Origin: Granulicella sp.
GTDB taxonomy: Bacteria > Acidobacteriota > Terriglobia > Terriglobales > Acidobacteriaceae
Length of the DNA: 64,000 nucleotides
Reading direction: 5' to 3'
Assembly (NCBI GenBank): GCA_027365345.1
Contig: DAHXNO010000066.1
Span: forward strand, 1 to 64,000
The notes beneath the pieces are model-generated. The model ran no database searches. It saw nothing but the letters and a program-made list of their open reading frames with translations, and was not told the origin of the DNA. Of the stretch, positions 5,708 through 21,937 are shown in pieces (the first letter of the stretch is position 1; each line of letters opens with the position of its first letter). The translations under genes were made by a program, and so were the position numbers.

Positions 5708-8700
5708 CTACTTTTCTCCTGTTTCTGTCGGCACATTTTCTCCTGTTTCTGTCGGCACAAGCGTAATCGCGAATACGATTACGTTCCGGTTTTGCGGAAG
5801 GGTGAGGCTGGTGACCTGCTTGTTTGGGTCGAGCGGAAAGCTATAGGCATAAAGGTGGAATGGGTTGGGATCGACGGAGCCATCTCCCTGCAACCGATAC
5901 GGAACCTGGACGGCATCGGTCTCTCCGCGCAGGCCGCTGGAGCCGGCCCAGTCGCTGAGGCTTCGCATAAAAGGTGTTGACGTTCCATCGCTGTAGTTGA
6001 CGGTAAAGAGCTGGCGGCGCTGATCTCCTTCTACGGCGGTACCGAGCAAGCGCAGGCTTGCGAAGCTTCCCTTGGGAAGAGTGACGGTGCGGCTGGTGAC
6101 GGCATCCGGCACGCCTGCCGGCCCGAGGTTGAAGGGAACCTGATCGCCAACCTGCTGGGTTCCCAGGGTCTCCTCAGCCAGGGAGGAGCCATCGCCGTCC
6201 ATGCTCTCTTCCGAGGAGAATTTGGCGCCCTTCCGCTCGATGGCGCGTACGTTGTACACCGAGGAGAGGTTTACGGGCACCGTGTTCTTCAACACAGGCG
6301 TCACGTTGAGGGTGAGGGTTGCGCTGTGGATCAGGTTGCCCGATGTGGCCGAGATGGTAATGGTGCTAGTGGAAGGCGAAGCGTTAGCGGACGCTACGAC
6401 GGTGAGGCTGGTGCGTCCGCTTGCCGTGACCGGCTCAAAGGCCAGATGCACGTCCTGGGGAGCTCCCGACGCGCTGAGATGGACCTGCTGCTGGAAGCCC
6501 CCCATGGGCATGAGAAGGACGTGAGCGGAGTGGCTCATGCCCTGCGAGACGGATAGATCGGCGGGCGCCGAGATGGAAAAGTCCGGCGGTCCAGCATGCG
6601 GGGAGGGTAGGACGTCATAGAGCGGCTGCACGGGATGCGTAGCCGGGTTTTCCTGGGCTACGGAGATCGCCAGGATGCGAATGTGAGGATTATCGGGTAA
6701 ATCCAGGGTCCTGGCATCCGCAGGAAGGTTCATCTGGTAGCCGAAGAGATAGGAGTAGCTGTAGGCTACGTTCTTGCCGGCAGCGTCGTGATGGTGGGAG
6801 CAGTACCATGCCAGCTCGGCGCGTTTGATGAATCCGGGCTTGAGGCCGATCATCTCGCCGTAGCTGTCGCCGCCGCCTACGGAACTCCATTGGCGGTCAT
6901 CCCACTGGCCGATGAAGCCGCCCCAGTCTTCGACATCGAGTTCTTTTTTGGATGAGCCGGCCTGGAAGACGGCCTTCTGGTCGCCGTCATCGGATGCGGC
7001 CAGGATGTACACGCGGTTGAAGCCGCCCTGGGGCAGGGCGATCTTCTGGCCTTTGGTCACGATCGCATTCGGAACGTCTGTCTTGGCCGGCGCCAGCTTG
7101 AAGACGACTCCATTGAATCCAAGCTGAGCAGGGAGCATCCCTGCGGGAAGGGCGTCTCCTTTGCCATCGAAGCCAGTCTTGTCGACGGCGCCGACGTTGG
7201 TGGCAGTCGCAAGGTCATAATGCAGCGATACGGGCTGGGAACGCACCTTTGCGACGCTGGACTGTGGCGGCGTGAGACGGAGGGCGAAGGTGCGAGGCTG
7301 ATAGGCTCCGAAGGAGGTAACCAGCTCACCTTGCTTCAAATTCGCGGCTCCCAGCGGCTGCTCCTGGCCGTTGACTTCACGCGCGCTGGTGATGGGCGAG
7401 GCAAACGAGACGTGAACATCCGGCTCCGGCTTTCCATCGAGTTCGACGAGACGCAGGATATACTCGCCGCTCGCCTCGGCTCTTTTGAGGGCCATGATCC
7501 GGATGCGCGGATTGCTGAGCTTGACGAGCGAGAAGGTGCTGCCCAGCTCGCCGTTGTGTTTGGTGGCCTGAAAGGCAAGGAGCGGGTCGTTGAGACGCTC
7601 GGCCTGCCAATCGGTCTGGGCGGAACGCCATCCATCGGCGTGGCCGGAGATGCCGTAGGTAAACTCATGGTGACCGAGATCCTGCGTGCCCTGGTCCGGG
7701 TAGCCGCCCCTTGTTCCTGGCGTACGGATGAGGGTGAGGCGGATGGTGTGGTCGTTGGGCTTATCCGAGCCATTCTTGCAATCGGTCAAGATAGTGGCTC
7801 CAAACTTGCCGCTCATATCGGTGAGATCGATCCACTGGTGGGTGGCGACTTCAAAGGTTCTGGGCTGCGCCGTAGGCCGCTGGATGGTGCCGATGCCCAG
7901 GTTGTAGGTTGCCATCTGATTGGAGGCGGTCAGGGGAAAGACAGCTTTGAGATTGCGCTCCCGGGAGTTCCAGTCCACTACGTTTGCGAACTCAAGCCGT
8001 TTGCCGGCGTCACCGGCGGAGAGCTTGATGGTTTGAATAAATCGCGAGCCATCCGTGACGCGGGTTACCTGGATGGCAACCTGCACAGGGCCTGCCTCCA
8101 CGACTCGAATCTCTGCCGGACCTGAGACATACTCACGGGGAGGAGCCTGCTCCTGATCCCAGTCCATGTTCCATGCGGGCCACTGGGAGGGGTTGTCGTA
8201 GGAGAGCGCGAGGCGCGCCGGCGCAGCGAGCAACTCGCGGTTTGTCTGCTTGTCAAAGATGCTCGAAACGTCGCCATCGGCGTTCAAGCGAACGCGATAG
8301 TAGGCATTCTCCAGTTGGTCGCCGCTTACATGCAGCGTGGACTCCTGGCTGTCCGCGGCGGCTCCCGGCTGTACGTGGTAGACCGCATAGCCCACAGAGG
8401 GGACGCGGGCTTCAAAGAGCACTTTGCCATCGGCGATCTGCGCGGGCTGCACCTTGCCATCCGGCGCGACGACATGGACCTGGGCGGGCAGGCCGCCGGG
8501 GAAGTGGAGAGAAGCTTTTACGATGTCATCCCGCTGAATGTTGAGCGGGTTGAAAACGACCACGGGGACGCCTTGGCCGTCAGTGTCGAGAGCTGCTGAG
8601 ACGCCCTCTACGCCGCTCTTGAGCACATCCGCGAACTGATTGAGGGCAATGACGTCATCATTCCAGGCGAACTCATAGGCTTTGGGGGTCGCCGTACCTG

Positions 8701-10126
8701 CGGCGAGATCGTGGAAGTGAGCTCCCATGGCCAGCGTCCAAGCGCCATTGAGCCGCTCCATGGGATAGGTACGCGCTCCCAGCCACGACGCGGCGACTGA
8801 GGATTTTTCTGCCGCGTCCGCCAGCAACTCTTCTTTGCGGATCCAGCGTTTCTGATAGGCCTGCGAAGTGAGCGAGCCGGCAGAGTGATTGGTAAGCTCC
8901 AGTTCTCCGGTGTACCGAGGGAGCAGGTTCTCCTCGGCAGGAGTGAGGTCGCGGAACATCTGATCCGCCGTGGCAGAGATGACGTGAACCGGACCTTCGC
9001 CCACTTGCACCTGTGGCCAGGCAGCGTGATTCTGACCGCGGTAGTACATCCCGTTCTGCGGTGGAAGGCCGACTGTGCCTTTGGTGACGATGGCCTCAAG
9101 CCGCTTGACGGAGTCGTCGCTGGGTGCGCCGCCGACGTCGCCGGTGCCGTAGTAGTGGTAATCCGTGAAGACTCCTGTGACCTTGCCGTTATTCAACACG
9201 CGCGCGGCCCAGTCGCCCTGAAAGCGCCGACCCTCATTTTGCTGCTCAGCCAGTTCGATGCCTTCCTGCTCGGTGCGGAGAGTGAGAAACTGCTGCAGGT
9301 CGCCTGGGCTGATCTTGCTTCCCGGGGTTCTGCTCTGAAGCTTTTCCTGCAAGGCAGCCATCTTCTTTTGAACGTCGCTCATGGCTGGATTGGGCGGCAG
9401 GGGCGGTAGGGGCGTACTGAGATCGGTGCTGATGCCTCCGCTATAGGCTCCGGGGTTCAGCGCGGCGGCCACGCTCTCTCCATCCGGCCCCACCCAGATG
9501 CCGACGTTGAATGGCGTACCCACCGGAGTTCTCTCCAGTGAATCTGGTCCGCCGACGTTGGCCGAGGAGCCCCAGGTGAGCTTCTGCGTGGAGAAGCCCT
9601 TGACCCCGGCGTGGGCGAGGATGGTGGGCAGAGAGGCGGGGAAGCCGAAACAGTCCGGCAACATGAACTCTTCGCTGCTCTTCCCGAACTCACGTTGAAA
9701 CCACTCATTGCCGTAGAGAACCTGGCGGAGGATTGCCTCTGCGCTGGGGGCATTGACGTCGCCCTCTTCCATGGAGGAGCCGGCTGGGAACCAGCGACCT
9801 GCCGCGACGTCCTGTTTTACTTCGGCGAATTCGTCAGGGTAGTACTCCTTCATCAGGCGGTAGCGGTTGGCTCCGCTGAAGTTGAAGATGTAGTGCGGAT
9901 ACTTGGCAAAGAGTTTGAAGTTGTACTCCATGGTGTTCCGCAGGTATTGATTGATGACCTGCGGATACTCCCAGCGCCACTCGGTGTCCAGATGTGCGTA
10001 TCCCACAACATAGAGCGTGGGATCCTTCTCCAGGTTGGGCTTTTGAGCCGTTTGGGCGTTGCCGGCGCCAGCCAGGAGGAGACCGATCAACGGCCCGAAA
10101 AGGAAATGGCTACGAAAGGAATGCAT
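5708..10126 (-). CDS. GH38 alpha-mannosidase, secreted multidomain
   Basis: 1472 residues from the ATG at 10126, chosen because GGAG lies six bases upstream and a clean signal peptide follows (MHSFRSHFLFG..., cleaved near AGNAQ); an ATG 12 codons earlier lacks this. The N-terminal GH38 catalytic domain has the zinc-binding AHLDTEW (His45, Asp47) and nucleophile motif PDCFGFP (Asp158), followed by the family's middle helical and C-terminal beta domains (to about 960). A further ~480 residues hold two related beta-sandwich modules (about 980-1195 and 1330-1455) flanking an Ig-like stretch (about 1220-1320). It would trim alpha-mannosyl residues from mannan oligosaccharides. It is followed immediately by GH92 (TAGATG). 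The upstream TonB receptor gene is on the same strand about 480 bp away. Confidence 0.92.
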   Translation of the reverse strand: MHSFRSHFLFGPLIGLLLAGAGNAQTAQKPNLEKDPTLYVVGYAHLDTEWRWEYPQVINQYLRNTMEYNFKLFAKYPHYIFNFSGANRYRLMKEYYPDEFAEVKQDVAAGRWFPAGSSMEEGDVNAPSAEAILRQVLYGNEWFQREFGKSSEEFMLPDCFGFPASLPTILAHAGVKGFSTQKLTWGSSANVGGPDSLERTPVGTPFNVGIWVGPDGESVAAALNPGAYSGGISTDLSTPLPPLPPNPAMSDVQKKMAALQEKLQSRTPGSKISPGDLQQFLTLRTEQEGIELAEQQNEGRRFQGDWAARVLNNGKVTGVFTDYHYYGTGDVGGAPSDDSVKRLEAIVTKGTVGLPPQNGMYYRGQNHAAWPQVQVGEGPVHVISATADQMFRDLTPAEENLLPRYTGELELTNHSAGSLTSQAYQKRWIRKEELLADAAEKSSVAASWLGARTYPMERLNGAWTLAMGAHFHDLAAGTATPKAYEFAWNDDVIALNQFADVLKSGVEGVSAALDTDGQGVPVVVFNPLNIQRDDIVKASLHFPGGLPAQVHVVAPDGKVQPAQIADGKVLFEARVPSVGYAVYHVQPGAAADSQESTLHVSGDQLENAYYRVRLNADGDVSSIFDKQTNRELLAAPARLALSYDNPSQWPAWNMDWDQEQAPPREYVSGPAEIRVVEAGPVQVAIQVTRVTDGSRFIQTIKLSAGDAGKRLEFANVVDWNSRERNLKAVFPLTASNQMATYNLGIGTIQRPTAQPRTFEVATHQWIDLTDMSGKFGATILTDCKNGSDKPNDHTIRLTLIRTPGTRGGYPDQGTQDLGHHEFTYGISGHADGWRSAQTDWQAERLNDPLLAFQATKHNGELGSTFSLVKLSNPRIRIMALKRAEASGEYILRLVELDGKPEPDVHVSFASPITSAREVNGQEQPLGAANLKQGELVTSFGAYQPRTFALRLTPPQSSVAKVRSQPVSLHYDLATATNVGAVDKTGFDGKGDALPAGMLPAQLGFNGVVFKLAPAKTDVPNAIVTKGQKIALPQGGFNRVYILAASDDGDQKAVFQAGSSKKELDVEDWGGFIGQWDDRQWSSVGGGDSYGEMIGLKPGFIKRAELAWYCSHHHDAAGKNVAYSYSYLFGYQMNLPADARTLDLPDNPHIRILAISVAQENPATHPVQPLYDVLPSPHAGPPDFSISAPADLSVSQGMSHSAHVLLMPMGGFQQQVHLSASGAPQDVHLAFEPVTASGRTSLTVVASANASPSTSTITISATSGNLIHSATLTLNVTPVLKNTVPVNLSSVYNVRAIERKGAKFSSEESMDGDGSSLAEETLGTQQVGDQVPFNLGPAGVPDAVTSRTVTLPKGSFASLRLLGTAVEGDQRRQLFTVNYSDGTSTPFMRSLSDWAGSSGLRGETDAVQVPYRLQGDGSVDPNPFHLYAYSFPLDPNKQVTSLTLPQNRNVIVFAITLVPTETGENVPTETGEK
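5712..5759. repeat. Perfect 24-bp tandem duplication at the GH38 3' end
   Basis: Two identical 24-bp copies (5712-5735 and 5736-5759) encode the octapeptide VPTETGE(N/K) twice at the very C-terminus of the GH38 protein. The downstream copy supplies the AGGAG ribosome site for the GH92 start at 5707, so the duplication also doubled the Shine-Dalgarno motif. Confidence 0.9.
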
Positions 10127-10350
10127 TGGATCTCCACATCTTTGGAAGCGGTTCAAGAGCACACCAGGGCGTTTTGATTTCTCAATAGATTCCTCCGGAA
10201 GCCAGAGGCGATGGTGCGACGGGGTTTGTGGGTTGAGCTTGCTGCACGATTAAGAACATGTTTGATTTGTTGACGGATGGACTGCGGGGGCTCTGCTCGC
10301 AGGACCATTGGTTTCGTGGGCCAGGAGCAAGGAAATCGAGGGGACGAGCG

Positions 10351-10604
10351 CCGGGCCGCGCCGCTTGCAAAGAAAGGCTCAAACTGCCGCACTGCGAGCG
10401 GTGTCCGATGGCAAGAGGCTCCTGCGCCCGACACAGACCGTTCCGCTAACTCCTCCTCCTCCGCCACAACCACCTCCTTTGCAGGTATTGGGCCTTTCCG
10501 TCGCCTGCCTGTGGTTTGCCGCTCCCGGATCGAGCCAGGGATGGAAACGGATCGAACAGGCCACGCGTCCTGAAAAAGAGACGTGGCCTGCTCGCTCCCG
10601 AGAA
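10351..10604. repeat. 3' flanking repeat of TonB receptor 1 (copy of 14891-15141)
   Basis: About 250 bp downstream of the first receptor gene align almost base for base with 14891-15141 behind the second receptor, including CGACACAGACCGTTCCGCTA and a Ser/Pro-rich cctcctcc tract. The left edge (10351-10380) still matches the part of 14891-14925 that belongs to a GH76 remnant. The rest of the gap 10127-10350 holds no supported gene. Confidence 0.8.
10554..10593 (-). terminator. Hairpin after TonB receptor 1
   Basis: A 12-bp near-perfect stem (gaacaggccacg against cgtggcctgctc) with a 16-nt loop starts 11 bp past the receptor stop codon. There is no U-run after it on the minus strand, so it is either a weak terminator or an mRNA 3' stabilising hairpin that lets some read-through reach GH38/GH92. 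Confidence 0.5.
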
Positions 10605-13600
10605 TCAAAACTGGAACTTGCCTTGGATTTGCACCACTCTTGGCACGTTTGCCTGATCCGGACCAACGGTTCCGAAGCCGCTCCAACCAGCGCCCGGAGT
10701 ATAGGTAGCAGGTCCGGCTCCGGGGTTGGTGTTGGGGCCGCCGAACAGAACCGAGTTGGTTGCATTGAAGGCATCCATGCGCAGTTGGAAGGTCGCCTTT
10801 CTCCAGACCGGGAAGGTCTTCATGAGGGAGAGATCCAGATCCGGCATGGTCGGGTTCCGTACCTGCTGCGTGGTGCCGGTGAGGTTCATCAGACCGTAGG
10901 GCGGTATGCCCGACCAGCATTGGCTCGGATTGTTGGCGGTTGAGAACCAGTCGCCTAGCCGGGTCCCACCCTTTGGGCGGTAGCTTTGGGTGCAGGTGTA
11001 GTACCAACCGGTGTCTACTCCCACAGGTGTTCCACTCTCCGCAGTCAGCACGGCTCCCAGGATCCAGCCGCCTATTATGGTGTTCACGGCATCGGAGGGA
11101 TGGCTCCACAAGAGGCCTCCGCGGCCAATGGGCAGGTTGTACACCGAGGTGAGCACCATCACATGGGTGCGGTCATTGCCCCCAAGCTGATGAATGCGGT
11201 GGAGGTCCTGATATGGCCAGCCGTTCTCATAGCCGTCTTCGTTGATGGTTCTGGAGAAGGTATAGGCGAGCTGGAAGCTGAGCCCGTTGCCCCACCCGCT
11301 GGTCACGCGCTTGTTGAGTTTGACTTCCAGGCCGTTGTAAAAGCGGCCGCCGATGGGAGCGTTATACTCTCCCACCAGGCCGGTGCCGCCGGGGCTGCAG
11401 TACTGAGGCAGGATGGTGCGGAGCTCAACCGCGGGAATGGTTGGCGCGGTGCCGCATTCCCCGGGTCCAGAGATGCCAGGAACCTGGTAGTACGGATTCG
11501 GGACCTGCTCATTGAAGTAAGCGGGATTGTTGATCGCCTCCTCTTCCTGGGCCAGGCTTGCCGTTCCGTTCTTCCAAAGGAACGTGCGCAGGCGATTGGT
11601 GAAGTTCCCAGCATACCTTGCATCGAGCACGAGGCCGTGGGTTAGTTCACGCTGGAAGCCCAAGGACATGACCTGCTCGATGGGGATTCTGCGGTTGGGG
11701 AAGTCGACCGAGACGCCTCCGTCGCCGAGGTCGGTGAGCAAGCCAAGGGTGTCGTCCGTGGGTTTGACCAATCCGGTGGCGAATGGATTGCCGCTCTGGA
11801 AGTAGTTGGTTGGTATGATGCCGGAGTCGAGCGAGGAGGTATAGTTGGTGTTTTGAGCCATTCCTACGCTGGAACCGCCCTCCAGCCCAAAGGAGTACAA
11901 GATGCCGTAACCGCCCCGGATGACCGTCTTCGGATTGACGGTAAAGCCGAAGCCGAAGCGTGGACCCACGTCTGTCCAGTCGGTGTTGTAAGCATCCCGC
12001 GACTGGCCGTCGGTGCCCGCGAACTCAATGCCGCCCAGCACCGTCGACAGGTTGGAGACATTGATGCCGGCTGCATTCCAAGCAGCCACATTGGCTCCGT
12101 TCGCTACGTTTGCCTGGTAGGACGCCTCTTGGCCGATGGGGTTGATACAGGTCATGCAGATGCCGCGGTTCAAGTAGTTATGGCGCTCGCGTAAGCCCCT
12201 CTGGACGTCATACCGGATTCCCATGTCCAAGGTAAGGCGCCTTGTCATGCGCACATCGTCCTGGAAGTAGACGGAGAAGACCGGGTATCCCTCCATGAGC
12301 GATCCGATCCATTGAATGTCGCCGCTGGACGGGTAGCCGAGGTAGAAGGATGCAAGAGCAGAACCATTCTGGTCATTCTGGAGGGTGTTGCAGCTTGGAT
12401 TGGGTAAGCCGGAAGGACTGTAGCAGTACGCATCTTCCGGGTCGTACTGGGTAAACCCGGAGTTGTAGGAGAAGGCACCGCTGGCATTTCCGCCGCCGTA
12501 AGGATAGCCTCCGAACTGATCCTCGTCGATCTCACCGCCGAACTCCAGGGTGTGCCTGGAATGGGTTGCGGTGAAGTCCACGTTGAGCGAGTAATCATTG
12601 ACGACGCTCGCACTGGCAAAGATGTCGTTGCCAAAGAGGGTGTTATCGCCGTTGCTATTGTTATTCAAAAAGCCCGTGCCCCACTGGTCCAGGATGTTGA
12701 ACTGCGGGAAATACTGGACCCCGGTGGTGGGTGGCAGCGGCATGGTGAGTCCGATGGAAGTGGGATCGCTTGGCTTGTTGACGCCATTCGGGTCGTCCGC
12801 CCAATACCGGCTCCACGACACCTTGAAGTCGCCCGTCATGTTAGGCGAAAACACATGGGTCACGTCCTGGGTGGCGACGTAGGTCTGGTGAACTGCATCG
12901 ATGGTGCCATTCTCCGCGAGAGTGCTTATGCCGTTGGAGTTTTGAGTATCGGCGCCCTTGGAGTAGATGAAATAGCTGTAGAGCTTGGTTCTGTCGCTAA
13001 GGCTATAGTCCACCCGAAACTGCGGCTGGTTGTAATAGAGCTCGCTGGGAGTCTGCACAAAGTAATTGTTGCCGTTGACCAGGTTCAAGGCGTTAGGGAC
13101 GTTGGGCAATGGCAGATACTGCAGGAGGCCCGCCGCCGTGGGGTTGAGCATGGACCCTGGAATGTCGTCGTTGGGAAACTCGGTCTGGGCGAGTTCATTG
13201 CTGTTGCAGGAGTTTACAGGGCCGCCTGTGAGACAGACAGCGGATCCAGGTTCATATATCGGAAGCCCGTTGGGAAACTCGGAGGGGTCCATAGCTCCGA
13301 CCAGCCCGAAGTCTATGCCGGAGTTGCCCTGGTATCCCGGCCGTAAAAAGGCCGGAGCGACGTTCTCAAAGAGCGAATCCTGCAGCGATTGATGAAAGCC
13401 CTCAAAGCCGAAGAAGAAGAAGAGACGATTCTTGATGATCGGACCACCCGCAGTGATCCAGAACTGATTCTGCACCTCTCCGTTGCGAGGGGCTCCGGCC
13501 AGGTTGTTCTGATAGGAGTTGGCGTTGAGGGTTGTGCCCTGGAAGGCGTAACGCGCGGTGCCGTGAAACTGGTTGCTGCCGCTCTTGGTGACAGTATTGA

Positions 13601-14351
13601 CGGTTCCACCGCTGGTGCGTCCATATCGCGCATCGTAGGTGGTGGTCATAACGTCCATCTCTTGAACGCTGTCCATATTGGGCGCAACCGTCCACTCGCC
13701 GGCGCCCTGATTGTCATAGGTGTATTGGCTGGTGATGTTGGATCCATTCAAGGTGAATTGATTATTGCCGGTGATGCCGCCGCCGATACTGTAGGCGTTC
13801 TGGTTGTTGTAACCGTTAAGCGCCGTATTGGGAGCGTAAGTCGCCTGGGTTCCCGGCGTAGTCCCGATGAGGGCGTAGACCTCTCCGCCGTTGAGCGGTA
13901 CATCTTCGATGGTTCGCGCGCTGACAGGATTATTCTCCGAGGCGTCCGCAGCATCCAGTTGCGGGGGCGCCGCGCTGACGACGACCTGTTGAGAGAGCTG
14001 GCCCACCTGGAGGGTAAAGTTCTGTTTAAAGACCTGCGTTGTGGTTACCAGCACATTCTCCTGCACCGCAGTCTTGAAGTTCGCGGCGGTGACGGAAAGG
14101 GGATAGGTTCCCGGCAAAACGTACGGGATGAAATAACTGCCCTTCCCCGTGGTGACCGCGGTGTAGGTGATCTGGGTGCTGTCATTTACAGCGGTCACTT
14201 TGGCACCTGGGATGACGGCTCCCGACGTATCTGAAACCTGCCCAGTGAATGTTGCGCGGAAGTCCTGGGCATAGCCGCGGAAAACTCCAAATACGAAGAC
14301 AAAGACAAAGGCCAAAATGCTCTTCGCCCAACGATTTGCCATGGGAAACAT
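10605..14351 (-). CDS. TonB-dependent outer-membrane receptor 1 (Oar-like)
   Basis: 1248 residues: signal peptide (about 1-30), a carboxypeptidase-regulatory-like Ig domain (about 33-112, TGQVSDTSGAVIPGAKV), a plug domain (about 125-270, with RYGRTSGGTVNTVTKSGSN) and a large barrel ending in the Phe-terminated GKFQF typical of BAM substrates. The family imports large ligands through the outer membrane using TonB/ExbBD energy. No separate SusD-like partner is present. AAGGAGG followed by TTAAGC supports the ATG. It is nearly identical along its whole length to the receptor at 15142-18876, differing mostly in exposed-loop segments. Its position between GH76 and GH38/GH92 suggests mannan oligosaccharides as ligand. 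Confidence 0.93.
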   Translation of the reverse strand: MFPMANRWAKSILAFVFVFVFGVFRGYAQDFRATFTGQVSDTSGAVIPGAKVTAVNDSTQITYTAVTTGKGSYFIPYVLPGTYPLSVTAANFKTAVQENVLVTTTQVFKQNFTLQVGQLSQQVVVSAAPPQLDAADASENNPVSARTIEDVPLNGGEVYALIGTTPGTQATYAPNTALNGYNNQNAYSIGGGITGNNQFTLNGSNITSQYTYDNQGAGEWTVAPNMDSVQEMDVMTTTYDARYGRTSGGTVNTVTKSGSNQFHGTARYAFQGTTLNANSYQNNLAGAPRNGEVQNQFWITAGGPIIKNRLFFFFGFEGFHQSLQDSLFENVAPAFLRPGYQGNSGIDFGLVGAMDPSEFPNGLPIYEPGSAVCLTGGPVNSCNSNELAQTEFPNDDIPGSMLNPTAAGLLQYLPLPNVPNALNLVNGNNYFVQTPSELYYNQPQFRVDYSLSDRTKLYSYFIYSKGADTQNSNGISTLAENGTIDAVHQTYVATQDVTHVFSPNMTGDFKVSWSRYWADDPNGVNKPSDPTSIGLTMPLPPTTGVQYFPQFNILDQWGTGFLNNNSNGDNTLFGNDIFASASVVNDYSLNVDFTATHSRHTLEFGGEIDEDQFGGYPYGGGNASGAFSYNSGFTQYDPEDAYCYSPSGLPNPSCNTLQNDQNGSALASFYLGYPSSGDIQWIGSLMEGYPVFSVYFQDDVRMTRRLTLDMGIRYDVQRGLRERHNYLNRGICMTCINPIGQEASYQANVANGANVAAWNAAGINVSNLSTVLGGIEFAGTDGQSRDAYNTDWTDVGPRFGFGFTVNPKTVIRGGYGILYSFGLEGGSSVGMAQNTNYTSSLDSGIIPTNYFQSGNPFATGLVKPTDDTLGLLTDLGDGGVSVDFPNRRIPIEQVMSLGFQRELTHGLVLDARYAGNFTNRLRTFLWKNGTASLAQEEEAINNPAYFNEQVPNPYYQVPGISGPGECGTAPTIPAVELRTILPQYCSPGGTGLVGEYNAPIGGRFYNGLEVKLNKRVTSGWGNGLSFQLAYTFSRTINEDGYENGWPYQDLHRIHQLGGNDRTHVMVLTSVYNLPIGRGGLLWSHPSDAVNTIIGGWILGAVLTAESGTPVGVDTGWYYTCTQSYRPKGGTRLGDWFSTANNPSQCWSGIPPYGLMNLTGTTQQVRNPTMPDLDLSLMKTFPVWRKATFQLRMDAFNATNSVLFGGPNTNPGAGPATYTPGAGWSGFGTVGPDQANVPRVVQIQGKFQF

Positions 14352-14432
14352 GCTTAACCTCCTTGAAAGCCACTAATCCTCAGTTGTCGCCGCTCAGGGT
14401 CTGCGTGGAACTCTGGGGGCATCATGGTTTAC

Positions 14433-14517
14433 GGAAACGTTACCATCTGGGACAATGAATCTCTTCCGAACGCTGACATTGTTTAATAGCCACGCGGGTG
14501 TTGTCAAGCTATTTTTA
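14433..14517 (-). promoter_or_regulatory. Promoter and LacI-type operator of TonB receptor 1
   Basis: On the minus strand a TTGACA -35 (14512-14517) is followed by an AT-rich -10 region (14478-14487, ATTAAACAAT) and then by a quasi-palindrome at 14433-14444 (plus strand GGAAACGTTACC), centred about 87 bp before the ATG. A central CpG palindrome of this form is typical of LacI-family operators. It recurs before receptor 2 and before the receptor-3 stub. The operator lies downstream of the promoter, consistent with repression by blocking transcription. Confidence 0.65.
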
Positions 14518-14810
14518 CGCAGCTTGAGGTTTGCTGGGAGGACAAACGATGCGCCTACGCGTGCAGCCTGGGTGTACGGGCATTCAGGCGGCCCTGTCTG
14601 CGCCACGTTTACCGGAAGCGCCTCGCTGGTGACCGCTTCTACCTCATGATCTGCTGAGATCCGCGCCTTCTCTATTTGATTTGGCCGCGATGAAGGACTG
14701 CGCCGGCGTTTCCTGTTGCTCCGCTGCTCACAATGAACGGCGCTGGAATCCAGTTCCGGGCAATGGTCTTCTAGCGCCAGTGCGCCGCATGCGCCGTTCA
14801 GAGGGGGGGG

Positions 14811-14925
14811 TATTGGAACTCGGCAGCCGCGATCAGCGCCTTTAACGCTGACGTTTGATGGATGACATTGCTGGACTCGAACGGCCCTTGCCGGGCGGCG
14901 CCTGTTACAAATACGGACTCGAACT
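14811..14925 (-). pseudogene. C-terminal remnant of a second GH76 gene
   Basis: The minus-strand translation reads TGAARQGPFESS, then HQTSALKALIAAAEF, which matches the end of the intact GH76 at 19284 (FGAAWQGPFDSS, NQTSALDALIAAAQFP). DNA of about 115 bp aligns, and flanking non-coding DNA on both sides (about 14550-14810) also resembles that around 19050-19283. The rest of the enzyme is missing. The remnant follows receptor 2, so an ancestral receptor-GH76 pair has lost its enzyme here. Confidence 0.75.
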
Positions 14926-15141
14926 GCCGCACTGCGAACGGCATCCGACTGCAAGAGGCTCCTGCGCCCGACACAGACCGTTCCGCTAACTCCTCCTCCG
15001 CCACAACCACCTCCTTTGCAGGTAATTGGGCCTTTCTGTGGCCTGCCTGTGGTTTGCCGCTCCCGGATCGAGCCAGGGATGGAAATGGAGCGAACAGGCC
15101 ACGCGTCCTGAAAAGACGCACGGCCTGTTCGCTCCCGGGAA
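14891..15141. repeat. 3' flanking repeat of TonB receptor 2 (copy of 10351-10604)
   Basis: Direct repeat of the segment behind receptor 1; see that entry for the shared blocks. Together with the two receptor genes and their upstream regions it outlines duplicated units of about 4.5 kb. Confidence 0.8.
15088..15134 (-). terminator. Hairpin after TonB receptor 2
   Basis: A perfect 13-bp stem (gagcgaacaggcc against ggcctgttcgctc) with a 21-nt loop, starting 8 bp past the stop codon. It is homologous to the hairpin behind receptor 1 and, like it, lacks a U-run. Confidence 0.55.
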
Positions 15142-18100
15142 TCAAAATTGGAATTTACCCTGAATCTGCAGCACCCTTGGCACATTTTGCTGGTCCGGAC
15201 CAATGGTTCCGAAGCCGCTCCAGCCAGCGCCCCCAGTGTACTTGGCAGGTCCGGCTCCAGGGTTGGTATCCGGGCCGCCAAACAGGACCGAGTTGGTTGC
15301 ATTGAAGGCGTCGAGGCGCAGTTGGAAGGTCGCCCTTCTCCAGACCGGGAAGGTCTTCATCAGGGAGAGATCAAGATCCGGCGCGATAGGAGTCCGAACC
15401 TGCTGCGTGGTGCCGGTGAGGTTCATGAGACCGTAGGGCGGTATGCCGGACCAGCATTGGCTCGGATCGTTGGCGGTTGAGAACCAATCGCCTAAGCGGG
15501 TTCCACCGGTTGGGCGGTAGCTGTGGGTGCAGGTGTAAAACCAACCCGTATCGGGTTCCACAGGTGTTCCACTCTCCGCAGTCAGCACGGCTCCCAGGAT
15601 CCAACCGCCTATTATGGTATTCACAGGATCGGAGGGATGGCTCCAGAGGAGGCCTCCGCGGCCAATGGGCAGGTTGTAGACAGACGTGACCACCAGGACA
15701 TGGGTGCGGTCATTGTTCCCGAGCTGATGAATGCGGTGGAGGTCCTGATACGGCCAGCCGTTCCGGTAGCCGTCTTCATTCATGGTTCTGGAGAAGGTAT
15801 AGGCAATCTGGAAGCTGAGCCCGCTCCCCCATCCGCTGGTCACGCGCTTGTTCACTTTTACTTCCAGGCCATTGTAGAAGTTACCGCCGATGGGAGCATT
15901 AAACTCTCCCACCAGACCGTTGCCGCCGGGTTTGCAATACTGAGGCAGGATCGTGCGGAGGGTGACGGCGGGAATGGTCTTCCCGGTACCGCATTCCCCA
16001 GGTCCAGACATGCCGGGAACTCCATAGTACGGATTGGGTAGCTGCTCATTGAAGTAGGCGGGATCGTTGATCGCCTCCTCTTCCTGGGCCAGGCTTGCCG
16101 TTCCGTTCTTCCAGAGAAACGTTCGCAGGCGACCGGTGAAGGTTCCAGCATACCTGGCATCGAGCACGAGGCCGTGCGTGAGTTCACGCTGGAAGCCTAA
16201 GGACATGACCTGCTCGATGGGGATTCTGCGGTTGGGGAAGTCGACCTCGACGCCTCCATTACCGAGATCGGTGAGGAGGCCAAGGGTGTCGCCCGTGGGC
16301 TTCACCAATCCCGATGCGAATGGATTGCCGGTCTGGAAGTAGTTCGTGGGGATGATGCCGGAGTCGAGCGAGGACGTGTAATTCGTGTTCTCCGTCATGC
16401 CTACGCTGGAGCCACCCTCCAGCCCAAAGGAGTACAAGACGCCATAACCGCCGCGGATGACTGTTCTGGGATTGACGGTAAAGCCGAAGCCGAAGCGTGG
16501 ACCCACGTCTGTCCAGTCGGTGTTGTAGGCATCCCGCGACTGGCCGTCGGTACCCGCAAACTCAATGCCGCCCAGCACGGTGGACAGGCTGGAGACGTTG
16601 ATGCCAGCCGCATTCCAGGCCGCCACATTGGCTCCGTTCGCTACGTTTGCCTGGTAAGACGCCTGTTGGCCGATGGGGTTGATACAGGTCATGCAGATGC
16701 CGCGATTCAAGTAGTTATGCCGCTCGCGCAGACCTCTTTGGACGTCATACCGGATTCCCATGTCCAAGGTGAGGCGCTTTGTGATGCGGACATCGTCCTG
16801 GAAGTAGATTGAGGATACCGGGTATCCCTCCATGAGCGATCCGACCCATTCGATATGGCCGCTGGACGGGTAGCCGAGGTAGAAGGATGCAAGGGCAGAA
16901 CCGTTCTGGTCATTCGCGAAGGTCTTACAGGTCGGATTTGGTGAGCCGGAGGGGCTGTAGCAGTATGCATTTTCCGGATCAAATTGGGTAAACCCGGAGT
17001 CGTAGGAGAATGCACCGCTGGCATTGCCGCCGTCGTTTGGATACCCTCCGAACTGATCCTCATCGATCTCACCGCCAAACTCCAGGGTGTGCCTGGAGTG
17101 GGTCGCTGTGAAATCCACATTGAGAGAGTAATCATTGGTGACGCTCGCGCTGAGAGCGATGTCATTGCCAAACAAAGTGGTGTCGCCATTGCCGTGCAAA
17201 AAGCCCGTGCCCCAGCCGTCAAGGATGTTGAACTGCGGAAAATATTGAACGCCGACGGTGGGCGGCAGCGGCATAGTGAGTCCGATGGAGGTGGGGTCGC
17301 TTGGCTTGTTGACGCCGTTTGGGTTGTCTGCCCAATACCGGTTCCACGATATCTTGAAGTCGCCTGTCATGTTAGGCGTGAACACATGGGTTACGTCCTG
17401 TGTTGCAACATAGGTCTGGTGAACCGCATCGACGTTACCATTCTCTGCGAGGGTGGGTATGCCGTTCCCGTTGTGATAGTTCGCACCATCGGAGTAGACG
17501 AAGTAGCTGTAGAGCTTGGTTCGATCGCTGAGGCTGTAGTCCACCCGAAACTGCGGCTGATTGTAATGGAGCAGGGTAGGAGTCTGCACGAAGTAATTGT
17601 TCCCATTCACCAGGTTCAAGGCGTTGGGGACGTTGGGCAACGGCAGATACTGCAGCAGTCCCGCTGCGGTAGGGTTGATCATGGATCCTGGAATGTCGTC
17701 GTTGGGGAATTCGGTCTGGACGAGTTTGTTGCTGTTGCAGGAGTCCACAGATCCACCGGTCAGACAGATGGCGGATCCAGGTTGATACACCGGAAGCCCG
17801 TTGGGAAACTCCGATGGATCCATAGCTCCGACCAGCCCGAAGTTTATGCCGGAGTTGCCCTGGTATCCCGGCCGTAAGAAAGCGGGGGCGAGGTTCTCAA
17901 AGAGCGAACTCTGCAGCGACTGATGAAAGCCCTCAAAGCCGAAGAAGAAGAAGAGGCGATTCCTGATGATCGGGCCACCCGCGGTGATCCAGAACTGATT
18001 CTGCACCTCGCCGTTACGAGGGGCTCCGTCCAGATTGTTCTGGTAGTAGTTTGCATTGAGGGCCGTGCCCTGGAAGGCATAGCGCGCGGTGCCATGAAAC

Positions 18101-18876
18101 TGGTTGCTACCACTCTTGGTCACGGTATTGACGGTTCCACCGCTGGTGCGTCCATAGCGCGCATCGTAAGTGGTGGTCATTACGTCCATCTCTTGAACGC
18201 TGTCCATGTTCGGCGCAATGGTCCACTCGCCAGAGCTCTGGAGGTCATACGCGTACTGACTGGTGACGTTGGATCCATTCAAGGTAAATTGGTTGTTGCC
18301 GCTGATGCCTCCGCCCATGATGTAGCCGCTCTGACCGTTGTAGCCATTCAGCTTGGTGCCCGCGCCGTAGGTCGGCTGGCTGCCGGGCGTAGTCCCGATG
18401 AGGGCGTAGATCTCTCCGCCGTTGAGTGGTACATTCTCGATGGTTCGCGCACTGACCGGGTTATCCTCCGAGGCGTCCACAGCATCCAATTGCGGCGGCG
18501 CTGCGGTGACGACGACCTTTTCAGAGACCTGGCCGACCTGCAGGGTGAAGTTCTGTTTGAAGACCTGCGTTGCGGTTACCAGCACATGCTCCTGTACCAT
18601 AGTCTTGAAGTTCGCGGCGGTGACGGAAAGCGTGTAGGCTCCCGGCAAGACGTACGGAATGAAATAACCGCCCTTTGCTGTGGTGACGCCGGTGTAGGTG
18701 ATCTGGGTGCTGTTGTTCACAGCGGTCACTTTGGCGCCTGGGATCACCGCTCCTGACGTATCTGAGACCACACCCGTGAATGTCGCGCGGAAGTCCTGGG
18801 CGTAGCCGCGGAGAACTCCGAATACGAAGACAAAAGCCAAAAGGCTCTTGGCCCAACGATGTGCCATTGGAAACAT
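15142..18876 (-). CDS. TonB-dependent outer-membrane receptor 2 (Oar-like)
   Basis: 1244 residues with the same architecture as receptor 1: signal peptide (about 1-28), carboxypeptidase-regulatory domain (about 30-110), TonB plug (about 120-265) and barrel ending GKFQF. Long stretches are identical to receptor 1, for example the RRIPIEQVMSLGFQRELTHG region; differences cluster in loops (the GAGTKLNGYNGQSGYIMGGG region of the plug, and around DGANYHNGNG). The same AAGGAGG ribosome site and operator/promoter precede it. It is a recent tandem duplicate that remains intact, so either dosage or slightly different ligand loops is being kept. It presumably imports mannan fragments released by the lipoprotein GH76 encoded upstream. 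Confidence 0.93.
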   Translation of the reverse strand: MFPMAHRWAKSLLAFVFVFGVLRGYAQDFRATFTGVVSDTSGAVIPGAKVTAVNNSTQITYTGVTTAKGGYFIPYVLPGAYTLSVTAANFKTMVQEHVLVTATQVFKQNFTLQVGQVSEKVVVTAAPPQLDAVDASEDNPVSARTIENVPLNGGEIYALIGTTPGSQPTYGAGTKLNGYNGQSGYIMGGGISGNNQFTLNGSNVTSQYAYDLQSSGEWTIAPNMDSVQEMDVMTTTYDARYGRTSGGTVNTVTKSGSNQFHGTARYAFQGTALNANYYQNNLDGAPRNGEVQNQFWITAGGPIIRNRLFFFFGFEGFHQSLQSSLFENLAPAFLRPGYQGNSGINFGLVGAMDPSEFPNGLPVYQPGSAICLTGGSVDSCNSNKLVQTEFPNDDIPGSMINPTAAGLLQYLPLPNVPNALNLVNGNNYFVQTPTLLHYNQPQFRVDYSLSDRTKLYSYFVYSDGANYHNGNGIPTLAENGNVDAVHQTYVATQDVTHVFTPNMTGDFKISWNRYWADNPNGVNKPSDPTSIGLTMPLPPTVGVQYFPQFNILDGWGTGFLHGNGDTTLFGNDIALSASVTNDYSLNVDFTATHSRHTLEFGGEIDEDQFGGYPNDGGNASGAFSYDSGFTQFDPENAYCYSPSGSPNPTCKTFANDQNGSALASFYLGYPSSGHIEWVGSLMEGYPVSSIYFQDDVRITKRLTLDMGIRYDVQRGLRERHNYLNRGICMTCINPIGQQASYQANVANGANVAAWNAAGINVSSLSTVLGGIEFAGTDGQSRDAYNTDWTDVGPRFGFGFTVNPRTVIRGGYGVLYSFGLEGGSSVGMTENTNYTSSLDSGIIPTNYFQTGNPFASGLVKPTGDTLGLLTDLGNGGVEVDFPNRRIPIEQVMSLGFQRELTHGLVLDARYAGTFTGRLRTFLWKNGTASLAQEEEAINDPAYFNEQLPNPYYGVPGMSGPGECGTGKTIPAVTLRTILPQYCKPGGNGLVGEFNAPIGGNFYNGLEVKVNKRVTSGWGSGLSFQIAYTFSRTMNEDGYRNGWPYQDLHRIHQLGNNDRTHVLVVTSVYNLPIGRGGLLWSHPSDPVNTIIGGWILGAVLTAESGTPVEPDTGWFYTCTHSYRPTGGTRLGDWFSTANDPSQCWSGIPPYGLMNLTGTTQQVRTPIAPDLDLSLMKTFPVWRRATFQLRLDAFNATNSVLFGGPDTNPGAGPAKYTGGAGWSGFGTIGPDQQNVPRVLQIQGKFQF

Positions 18877-18956
18877 GCTTAACCTCCTTGAAAATCGATC
18901 ATCCTCGGTTGGCGCCGCTCCCGGTCTGCGTAAGATCCCGGGGCGTTATGGTTTAC

Positions 18957-19024
18957 GGAAACGTTACTGGTGACAGATTTTGGCGTTTTTGCGAACAACA
19001 GATTATTTATTCCCCAGTTGTCAA
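18957..19024 (-). promoter_or_regulatory. Promoter and LacI-type operator of TonB receptor 2
   Basis: Minus strand: TTGACA (19019-19024), AT-rich -10 region (19001-19010, ATAAATAATC) and operator at 18957-18968 (plus strand GGAAACGTTACT), centred about 86 bp before the ATG. The layout equals that before receptor 1. The remainder of the 18877-19283 gap carries no supported gene; its 19050-19283 part is homologous to the DNA next to the GH76 remnant. Confidence 0.65.
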
Positions 19025-19283
19025 GAGTTTCTGGCTGCAGTCGGCGTCCAGCCGCTTGGGGGTAAAGCATCCAAGCAGCGCTTTCTGCGGCACATTTGCC
19101 GGAGACGCCTGCCTTGTGACCGCTTTTGTGTCTGGTCCGCAAAATTTCACATCTTCCATAAGTTGTTCCTGACGAAAGTTCCCTCTCCCAATTCCCGTTG
19201 CTCAACCGTTCACGGTGATCGACGCTAAGATACCTTTCCCGGCAATGACCCGGCGCCACGGCGCCGAGTGTGCCGTCCGGGTA

Positions 19284-20393
19284 TTATGGAAACTGGGCAG
19301 CCGCAATCAGAGCATCTAGCGCCGATGTTTGATTAATGGGACTGCTCGAATCGAACGGCCCTTGCCATGCAGCGCCAAAATAAGAGCTGTACCGATCGCT
19401 CGTCCAGATGCTGCTCGCATTGGCATCGATGAACGTCTTGTATTGCGAATTGGAGTCGGCCTTATAGAGCACCGCTAAATTGCGCATAAATATACCTTTG
19501 AACTGAGGGGCGTCGGTTCCTGACAGGGTTCCAGGCTCTACCAGAATGCCATTCGTGCTCAGATTGGTGATGGCTGCAGTGGCGATCGCTTCTGCTTGCG
19601 GCAAGAGCGTTGGATCCTGGTCGGCTTTGTAGAGCGATGCAAGACCTCCAAGAATAACCCCCTGATTGTAGGTCCACGTGGTTGCGCCGTTGTTTTTGCA
19701 GGCGGTTGGGTCAGTTGAAGTCAAACCATCATTGATCAGGTTTTGCGAATTGATCATGCCGGAGGCCTTGAACCATGTCCATTCTTTTTGCGCCCACGCC
19801 AAATATCCGGCCGATGTGGTTCCAGTGGTCCTGTTTGCCAGTTTGGCGGCGACCGTAAGAAACAGTTCATTGGCGATGGCGTTCTTGTATCCGGTGACGC
19901 CTTTGCCTGGCTTCTCCCACCAGACTCCCCCTCCGCAGGTGGAGGTGTCCCACTCGGTGGCGATGTTCGCGAAGATGGTCTCAGCCATGGACAGATAAGA
20001 CTGTGTGCCGGTCAGGTCATAGGCTGCGATCCACGCCAGCGCCCACCAGCCTTCGTCGTCATCGTAGTTGTCGAGGAAGTTCGTATGACCCGATGACGCA
20101 TTTGCATTGGCGAACGTAGAGGCAAATGCAGGATTATAGGTCTTATCGCCAGTGACGCTTGAATAATCTGCGAGCACGGTGATTGAGTTTGCGGCGTTCC
20201 ACCAGCCCGACGGCGAAAAGTAGAGACCCGTGCTCGCGTCATACCAATTACTTTGCAGCGTGGCGACACCTTTGGCGGCCTCCTGGGAGTACTTCGAAGT
20301 GCCGGAGCCGTTGCTGCCACATGCGGTCAACTCTAAGAGGCACACGCCGGAGAAGAGAGCCCCCAATATGAATGTAATCATCCTTTTGTTCAT
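19284..20393 (-). CDS. GH76 endo-alpha-1,6-mannanase, lipoprotein
   Basis: 369 residues. The signal peptide ends in a lipobox, LTAC with Cys25, so the enzyme is lipid-anchored. The rest is an (alpha/alpha)6 GH76 domain: the catalytic Asp cluster lies in DNYDDDEGWW (Asp111-113), preceded by YFSPSGWWNAANSITVLADY and followed by CGGGVWWEK and NEL, all family-typical. GH76 enzymes cut the alpha-1,6-mannan backbone of fungal cell-wall mannoprotein. GAGG just before the ATG supports the start. Upstream lie a third receptor's promoter, operator and first codons, so GH76 is probably now transcribed from that receptor promoter. It has relatively low GC and many Asn/Ser/Thr residues, as expected for a secreted enzyme. 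Confidence 0.93.
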   Translation of the reverse strand: MNKRMITFILGALFSGVCLLELTACGSNGSGTSKYSQEAAKGVATLQSNWYDASTGLYFSPSGWWNAANSITVLADYSSVTGDKTYNPAFASTFANANASSGHTNFLDNYDDDEGWWALAWIAAYDLTGTQSYLSMAETIFANIATEWDTSTCGGGVWWEKPGKGVTGYKNAIANELFLTVAAKLANRTTGTTSAGYLAWAQKEWTWFKASGMINSQNLINDGLTSTDPTACKNNGATTWTYNQGVILGGLASLYKADQDPTLLPQAEAIATAAITNLSTNGILVEPGTLSGTDAPQFKGIFMRNLAVLYKADSNSQYKTFIDANASSIWTSDRYSSYFGAAWQGPFDSSSPINQTSALDALIAAAQFP

Positions 20394-20514
20394 AACTTCC
20401 TCTCTGTTTGCATCGCTTGAATCCCATTGCCGCTCTGCGCGGTGCGAGAGATCTCCACCTGCTGGCGTCTGAAGAATGCGCGGGCTTCATTTGGCGACTC
20501 CTGAGAATCCTGGT

Positions 20515-20570
20515 TGGGCGGGGACTAGGGTCCGAAGGCCCTTCGCTCAACGATGTGCGCCTGGAACCAT
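20515..20570 (-). pseudogene. 5' stub of a third TonB receptor gene
   Basis: DNA 20515-20590 aligns with the start region of receptor 2 (18821-18890): the AGGAGGTCAAGC ribosome site, an ATG at 20570 and codons for M-V-P-G-A-H-R, matching M-F-P-M-A-H-R. The next codon, Trp in receptor 2, is TGA here. Only about 18 codons are recognisable before the homology fades toward GH76. The receptor body is gone, leaving its leader in front of GH76. Confidence 0.7.
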
Positions 20571-20650
20571 GCTTGACCTCCTTGACAACCGAGCATCCTC
20601 AGTTGGCGCCGCTCAGGATCTGCGTGAGACTCTGGCGCATCCTGGTCTCC

Positions 20651-20726
20651 GGAAACGTTACCAACCGGGTAAATTTGACCTCTGGGAAACGAAAACATTG
20701 TTTATTGCCGGAACGGGCGTTGTCAA
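20651..20726 (-). promoter_or_regulatory. Promoter and LacI-type operator before the receptor-3 stub and GH76
   Basis: Minus strand: TTGACA (20721-20726), AT-rich -10 region (20697-20705, TAAACAATG) and operator at 20651-20662 (plus strand GGAAACGTTACC), centred about 86 bp before the stub ATG. This is the same spacing as in front of receptors 1 and 2. It is the best candidate promoter for GH76, about 260 bp upstream of that gene's ATG, and lies some 230 bp beyond the LacI regulator's stop codon. Confidence 0.65.
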
Positions 20727-20890
20727 GCCTGTTTTGCCGGCCTGGCTTTTGCCAGCAAAGAATTCCGGCGGGAGTGGCCCCCTGACCCTACCCGAGAGAT
20801 TCCGTGGCTAAACCGACTTGGTCTTAGACGGTAGGATCTGAAGTGGCGCCTGCGCATCCTGACGCGGCGATTTCAGTGAGAGGATGCTTC

Positions 20891-21937
20891 TCAGGGTTGG
20901 TTCGGACGGCATCCGCAGGATTCCCGTATGAGCAAGGATGTCTTGAGCACGACAGGCTTCTGAGTGCCGGTTGGCGCAGGCTTAGCCGAGACTGCGGCGC
21001 CGTTGAGATGGCGGAATAACAACTGACCAGCCGTTTGCGCGAGTTCCTGAATCGGCTGCTGCACCACGGTGATGGCTGGACGCACCGTTCCGGCGAGTTG
21101 AAAGTCGTCATAGCCTATGATGGCGACTTTCTGCGGAACCGGAACACGCAATTGCAGCAGGGCCTGAAACGCGTCCACCGTAGTGCTGTTCTTCAACGTG
21201 AAGACGGCGTCCAGCGAACCGGGTTGCCGAAGCATCTTCGCTATCGCATTTTCGCAGGAGGCGTAGTCGTGGATGGAGGTGTGCAGCAAAACCTTGAGGT
21301 TGGCGGCAGCCATGGCCGCCTGGTAGCCACGGACCCGTTCGCGGATGGTAAAGAGGTTCATCTCCCCGGTGAGACACGCAATTTTCTTGTATCCGTGCGC
21401 GATGAGATGCCGGGTTGCATGTTGCGCTCCAACAAAGTTATCGGCCACCACCGAGGGCACGACGGCTCCCGCTACCGGACGGTCCAAGGCTACGATCGGT
21501 ACCGAAGCGCGCATGAGCAGACTGCACAACTCGCCGCTCTCCGAGTCTGACGGCGCGATGATAAACCCATCGACGCGATGCTGCATCAGCGTATTGACCG
21601 CGTCCCGTTCCATGGATTTCTCATTGTGCGTCGCCATGACGATCAGCAGACATTCATGCCGGCGTGCGATACCCTGCAACACCTCAGCACAACTGGAAAA
21701 GAAGGGATCGGCAATGCTTGGCACCACAAGACCGACAGTGCGGGTTCTATGCCCCTTGAGAACCCGAGCGGCGTGATTGGGCAGATATCCCAGTTCTTTG
21801 ATGGCGCGCTCCACGCGAGCGAGCGTCTGAGGCTCTACGTGCTCCACCCCGTTAATGACTCGCGACACGGTGGTTGTACCAACGCCGGCGCGCTTGGCCA
21901 CTTCATGTAACGTGGGAAGCTTTCTCGGTTTTCTCAT
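20891..21937 (-). CDS. LacI-family transcriptional regulator
   Basis: 348 residues. The N-terminal LacI helix-turn-helix spans about residues 8-60 (TLHEVAKRAGVGTTTVSRVINGVEHV, with hinge NHAARVLKG), followed by a periplasmic-binding-protein-like effector domain (about 66-335, VGLVVPSIADPFFS, AIIGYDDFQLAG). Such proteins bind palindromes with a central CpG and release them on sugar binding. Three matching palindromes stand before the receptor genes downstream, so this is the likely local regulator of mannan utilisation, with a mannose or mannobiose-type inducer inferred. It is transcribed in the same direction as the locus. No copy of the operator is seen at its own promoter. Confidence 0.9.
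   Translation of the reverse strand: MRKPRKLPTLHEVAKRAGVGTTTVSRVINGVEHVEPQTLARVERAIKELGYLPNHAARVLKGHRTRTVGLVVPSIADPFFSSCAEVLQGIARRHECLLIVMATHNEKSMERDAVNTLMQHRVDGFIIAPSDSESGELCSLLMRASVPIVALDRPVAGAVVPSVVADNFVGAQHATRHLIAHGYKKIACLTGEMNLFTIRERVRGYQAAMAAANLKVLLHTSIHDYASCENAIAKMLRQPGSLDAVFTLKNSTTVDAFQALLQLRVPVPQKVAIIGYDDFQLAGTVRPAITVVQQPIQELAQTAGQLLFRHLNGAAVSAKPAPTGTQKPVVLKTSLLIRESCGCRPNQP

Follow-up and report, generated by a model that had tools for sequence, protein, structure and literature searches.

A GH76 gene tail between tandem receptor genes of a Granulicella sp. as the probable scar of a single tandem duplication

The window analysed here is a 64,000-nucleotide stretch of a Granulicella sp. 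genome (assembly GCA_027365345.1, made up of 208 contigs; positions 1 to 64,000 of contig DAHXNO010000066.1), and all features of the locus lie on its minus strand. Read along this strand, the order is LacI, a promoter/operator with a receptor-like start, GH76, receptor 2, a GH76 tail, receptor 1, GH38, and GH92. The first gene (20891-21937) encodes a LacI-family regulator (PF00356 and Peripla_BP), whose position is kept in close relatives, and the last two encode alpha-mannosidases of the families GH38 (5708-10162; PF01074/PF07748) and GH92 (3245-5707; PF07971/PF17678). A perfect 24-nt tandem repeat is present at the 3' end of the GH38 gene (5712-5759). The intact GH76 gene (19284-20393), of the endo-alpha-1,6-mannanase family, matched profile PF03663 with an E value of 3.9e-51 and 175 bits, against a curated cutoff of 25.9, and its translation contains a lipobox-like LTAC motif (an apparent lipoprotein signal) and the sequence YDDDEGWW, whose DD pair is a candidate for the adjacent catalytic aspartates described for GH76 enzymes (PMC9213526).

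Receptor 1 (10605-14351) and receptor 2 (15142-18876) are Oar-like, TonB-dependent-type outer-membrane receptors. In profile searches, both consisted of a CarboxypepD_reg N-terminal domain (PF13620) and an outer-membrane barrel (PF25183), with no match reported for a plug domain, and no SusD was found among the six locus genes scanned. An earlier note on this DNA, made from the sequence alone, had described a set of two intact receptors and one intact GH76, and this 2:1 ratio is borne out here. The same note considered the receptors nearly identical; their reading frames are indeed open, but they share only 87% nucleotide and 88% amino acid identity, with a dS of 0.455. The dN/dS ratio of 0.147 indicates purifying selection on both receptors, which appears to have kept the two copies since the duplication. 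In a small receptor tree, the window copies were sisters (support 1.0), and the dS between them is about half of that to the receptors of the relatives at loci L071 to L073 (0.86 to 1.04). Since the copies are each other's closest relatives and are separated by the lower dS, the duplication appears to postdate the split from these relatives, unless gene conversion has homogenised the copies.

Each receptor gene is preceded by a promoter/operator region, and a third such region lies 5' of GH76. The receptor-1 promoter/operator (14352-14558) contains -35/-10 elements at 14507-14478 (TTGACA-18-AACAAT) and an operator at 14433-14444. The third region (20515-20728), which comprises a promoter, operator, ribosome binding site, and degenerate receptor start, has the same TTGACA-18-AACAAT elements and a palindromic LacI-type site, GGTAACGTTTCC, at 20651-20662. 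Its segment from 20728 to 20535 is 75% identical over 195 nt to the promoter, operator, and start of receptor 1 and 80% identical over 127 nt to the receptor-2 counterpart. The third receptor start that had been proposed at 20515-20570, directly before GH76, is real, but its coding part, with 36 to 37 of 56 nt identical, runs into a TGA at codon 8. The receptor-2 promoter/operator (18877-19030) was delimited by alignment with that of receptor 1, and its -35/-10 spacer is 7 nt shorter; a promoter scan detected two of the three promoters and missed only this one. Given the shortened spacing and the missed detection, transcripts that read through from GH76 may be needed for expression of receptor 2. 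The operators before the receptor are conserved in relatives. A genome-wide search with the operator pattern gave 12 matches versus 18 for the reversed control, and the pattern alone is therefore uninformative on this scale.

The spacers that follow the receptor genes are the most similar noncoding parts of the locus. T1 (10163-10604) is the 442-nt spacer between receptor 1 and GH38, and T2 (14890-15141), which follows receptor 2, is 89 to 90% identical to its first part. This 90% identity (10350-10604 versus 14890-15141) compares with 66% at synonymous sites and 63 to 66% in the other noncoding parts, which suggests that gene conversion or constraint has acted on the spacers; this could make the duplication harder to date. 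A 13-bp hairpin lies right after each receptor stop codon (10552-10597 and 15089-15135) and is kept in four relatives, among which 4 of the 13 pairs have changes on both sides that preserve pairing. The hairpin has no match among the known RNA families of Rfam. It may act on the downstream message, either limiting or stabilising it. Two other roles for the spacer were considered and rejected: it is not a dispersed repeat that could have mediated the duplication, as the genome holds only two local copies, nor a conserved small gene, as no open frame is common to the relatives.

The GH76 tail copy between the receptors comprises about 30 codons (14811-14902), with 72 of 92 nt (78%) identical to 19285-19376 at the 3' end of GH76 and the GH76 reading frame kept. 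The match scored 119, whereas none of 300 dinucleotide-shuffled sequences scored above 34, and runs on past the GH76 stop codon into the 3' flank. The copy of this flank (F1, 14559-14810) is 63 to 65% identical to the flank beside the intact gene (F2, 19031-19283), versus 37 to 50% in shuffles (z of 28). A GH76 C-terminal remnant had previously been placed at 14811-14925; the remnant is real, but its homology begins at 14902 and not at 14925. This abrupt start coincides with the end of the T1/T2 spacer homology. T2 tracks T1 at 89 to 90% up to 14890 and thereafter tracks GH76 at 78%, and homology falls to chance on each side, with 16 of 83 positions identical between GH76 and T2 before the junction and 17 of 79 between T1 and T2 after it. 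The maximum-likelihood point for the switch from T1-like to GH76-like sequence is 14890-14893. At the junction (14890-14902), the end of the T1-like sequence and the beginning of the GH76-like sequence coincide in GGCGCCGCCCGGC, and GGCGCnGCnnGGC is common to T1, T2, and GH76. Today, GH76 and T1 are identical there at 10 of 13 positions, including the first five bases (GGCGC); the ends of the repeat thus appear to have an imperfect microhomology of about 13 nt in common, whose original length is uncertain. The segments 19376-14890 and 14902-10350 are colinear from end to end, with identities of 77% in the GH76 tail, 63% in the flank, 66% in the promoter, 87% in the receptor, and 90% in the spacer. 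An open frame across the junction (14798-15145) joins the spacer to the GH76 C terminus and shows no sign of expression.

A remnant that starts exactly where the T1/T2 homology ends is what a single tandem duplication would leave if its left boundary fell within GH76. We therefore consider the tail at 14811-14902 to be a duplication scar rather than a decayed whole gene, and no enzyme copy need have been lost. Our preferred explanation, in which we have considerable confidence, is that one 4.5-kb tandem duplication took place in the LacI-controlled alpha-mannan cluster after GH76 had come to lie between LacI and the receptor. The older arrangement would have been LacI-receptor-GH38-GH92. A first event would have brought GH76 to its place downstream of LacI and upstream of the receptor, where a duplicate promoter and receptor start precede it. 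The second event, which is well supported, would have been a single head-to-tail duplication of about 4.5 kb (19376 to 14890), joined at about 5 to 13 nt of microhomology. The copied segment would begin near codon 340 of GH76, include the 3' flank of this gene, the promoter, and the receptor, and end some 250 nt beyond the receptor. This event would have given rise to the receptor pair and to the GH76 tail that separates its members.

The earlier note had instead proposed that a promoter-receptor-GH76 unit was triplicated and that two enzymes and one receptor were then lost. The three promoter/receptor starts are real, a GH76 tail does lie after receptor 2, and one related locus, L006 (Acidobacteriaceae MAG bog_218, PLGM01000407; receptor 51% identical), has the order receptor-GH76-GH38-GH92. 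We nevertheless regard this history as very improbable. The receptor module is duplicated, but repetition of the complete receptor-GH76 unit is not supported, and the supposed GH76 trace at 10351-10380 proved to be ordinary receptor-GH38 spacer: a search for GH76 sequence in the 442-nt spacer before GH38 gave a score of 20 against a shuffle mean of 22, i.e., chance, whereas the match of 14811-14902 lies above it. T1 aligns unbroken through this segment with the spacers between receptor and GH38 at three related loci (L071, L072, and L073) that carry no GH76 at this position (scores of 40 to 48, shuffle maxima of 32 to 33); the spacer of L077 scored at noise level against T1. The junction microhomology contained in T1 explains why a short GH76-like trace was seen after receptor 1. 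A triplication also requires more events than a single duplication and, because the T2 remnant starts exactly where the T1/T2 homology ends, it would need two separate losses to have stopped at the same point.

Related loci likewise bear on this history. GH38 directly follows the receptor in 13 loci of the same genus and family, and GH92 follows it in four more. The relatives at L071-L073 have the order LacI-receptor-GH38, with GH92 next where the contig extends that far, and a distant GH76 (43 to 53% identical) follows GH92 in some related loci. In L077 (relative G015; 4445-8166), two overlapping frames, with the break near codon 875, make up the receptor gene, through either a frameshift or an assembly error. 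GH76 adjoins this receptor in none of the seven same-genus loci, and the receptor-GH76 pair whose occurrence in relatives had been suggested as a check was found only in the distant L006. Like the window, L006 has a receptor, GH76, GH38, and GH92 in one cluster; however, it has a single receptor, and its GH76 lies between the receptor and GH38, whereas that of the window lies upstream of the receptors. A pair of the proposed kind does occur in L006, but genomes closer to the window have no GH76 in that arrangement. None of the genomes searched carries the arrangement inferred for the pre-duplication state.

As to the origin of the GH76 gene, none of the 27 other genomes in the genus has its subfamily, and the best GH76 match among them is only 62% identical. 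Relatives at 65 to 72% occur in other genera of the family, where the subfamily is patchy. The nearest relative is a second copy on another contig (C22) of the same genome, 80% identical and sister to the window gene with support of 1.0. The trees are small, with weak support for the deeper branches of the GH76 clade. The absence of the subfamily from the genus, together with a nearest relative in the same genome, suggests that the window GH76 is probably a later arrival at the locus. The C22 copy (locus L078, 5328-14549) has another Oar-like receptor on one side and a GH3 gene on the other, accompanied by a divergent LacI. Its similarity to the window copy covers the coding sequence and roughly 20 nt upstream, and no flank beyond these. 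With flank identity limited to these 20 nt, copying of GH76 from C22 together with its flanks was rejected. Another locus similar to C22 (L009) has no GH76 at that spot but one nearby.

Within the preferred history, the third promoter and receptor start, which are attributed to the first event, require a further duplication or deletion, and the data do not separate two variants of this event well. One, which we hold to be a realistic option though a little short of an even chance, is that a single-crossover integration or template switch brought in GH76 and left the insert flanked by a duplication of about 200 bp, made up of promoter and receptor start. A direct repeat, from the promoter to about codon 18, does bound GH76 and its flank on both sides, and both the patchiness of the subfamily and the second GH76 on C22 with its shared coding sequence and 20 nt are in keeping with such an import; against it stand the lack of a known donor with the promoter attached, a 3' flank for which no source was found in the genome, LacI, or the spacers, and the indeterminable direction of copying between the two loci. 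The other variant, possible but rather unlikely in our estimation, supposes that a receptor-GH76 pair was duplicated, that the first receptor (except for its promoter and start) and the second GH76 were deleted, and that the 4.5-kb duplication followed. This would account for the third promoter and start, fits the junction, and begins from a gene order that occurs in L006. However, GH76 would have had to leave the receptor-GH38 spacer without a scar, although that spacer is still colinear with those of the relatives, and neither the seven same-genus loci without GH76 beside this receptor nor the merely 62% identical best match in the genus favours such an ancestral pair. We also entertain, as a doubtful proposal, that members of this GH76 subfamily repeatedly settle beside mannan receptors at differing positions (the window, C22, and L006), and that a captured receptor promoter precedes the one in the window. 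If true, this would be a modular route by which a roaming mannanase comes under the control of a LacI operator already in place.

Judged from its gene families, the locus appears to be a LacI-controlled system of an ordinary kind for alpha-mannan uptake and breakdown. GH76 at the surface would cut alpha-1,6-mannan, the receptors would import the oligosaccharide products, and GH38 and GH92 would trim these, as is known from Bacteroidota mannan loci (PMC9213526); LacI, at operators shared by the units, would keep them off in the absence of inducer. The alpha-mannan polysaccharide utilization loci of Bacteroidota, such as those of Bacteroides thetaiotaomicron and Salegentibacter Hel_I_6 (PMC9213526), similarly combine GH76 with GH92/GH38 and outer-membrane uptake, and the GH76 copy number differs between strains (PMC9213526). 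Unlike these loci, the locus here has Oar-like receptors (PF13620 and PF25183), a LacI regulator, two tandem receptors to one GH76, and no SusD among the six genes scanned. The duplication itself resembles lac amplification in E. coli, in which microhomology was found at 40 of 40 sequenced junctions (PMC3161906), in that the copy is head to tail, the junction appears to lie at a few to tens of shared bases, and the breakpoints fall within genes. Such microhomology junctions are common in bacterial amplification. In contrast to the lac case, the duplication in the window is old and fixed (dS about 0.46), its copies are divergent, and its mechanism is deduced from the scar alone.

Taken together, the locus illustrates that what looks like a pseudogene among nutrient-uptake genes can be the scar of a duplication and not evidence of gene loss. 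It provides a readable case in Acidobacteria in which receptor number was raised, to two receptors for one enzyme, and both copies appear to have been kept by selection. Such evolution of a gene cluster is of an ordinary kind and unusually legible at this locus.
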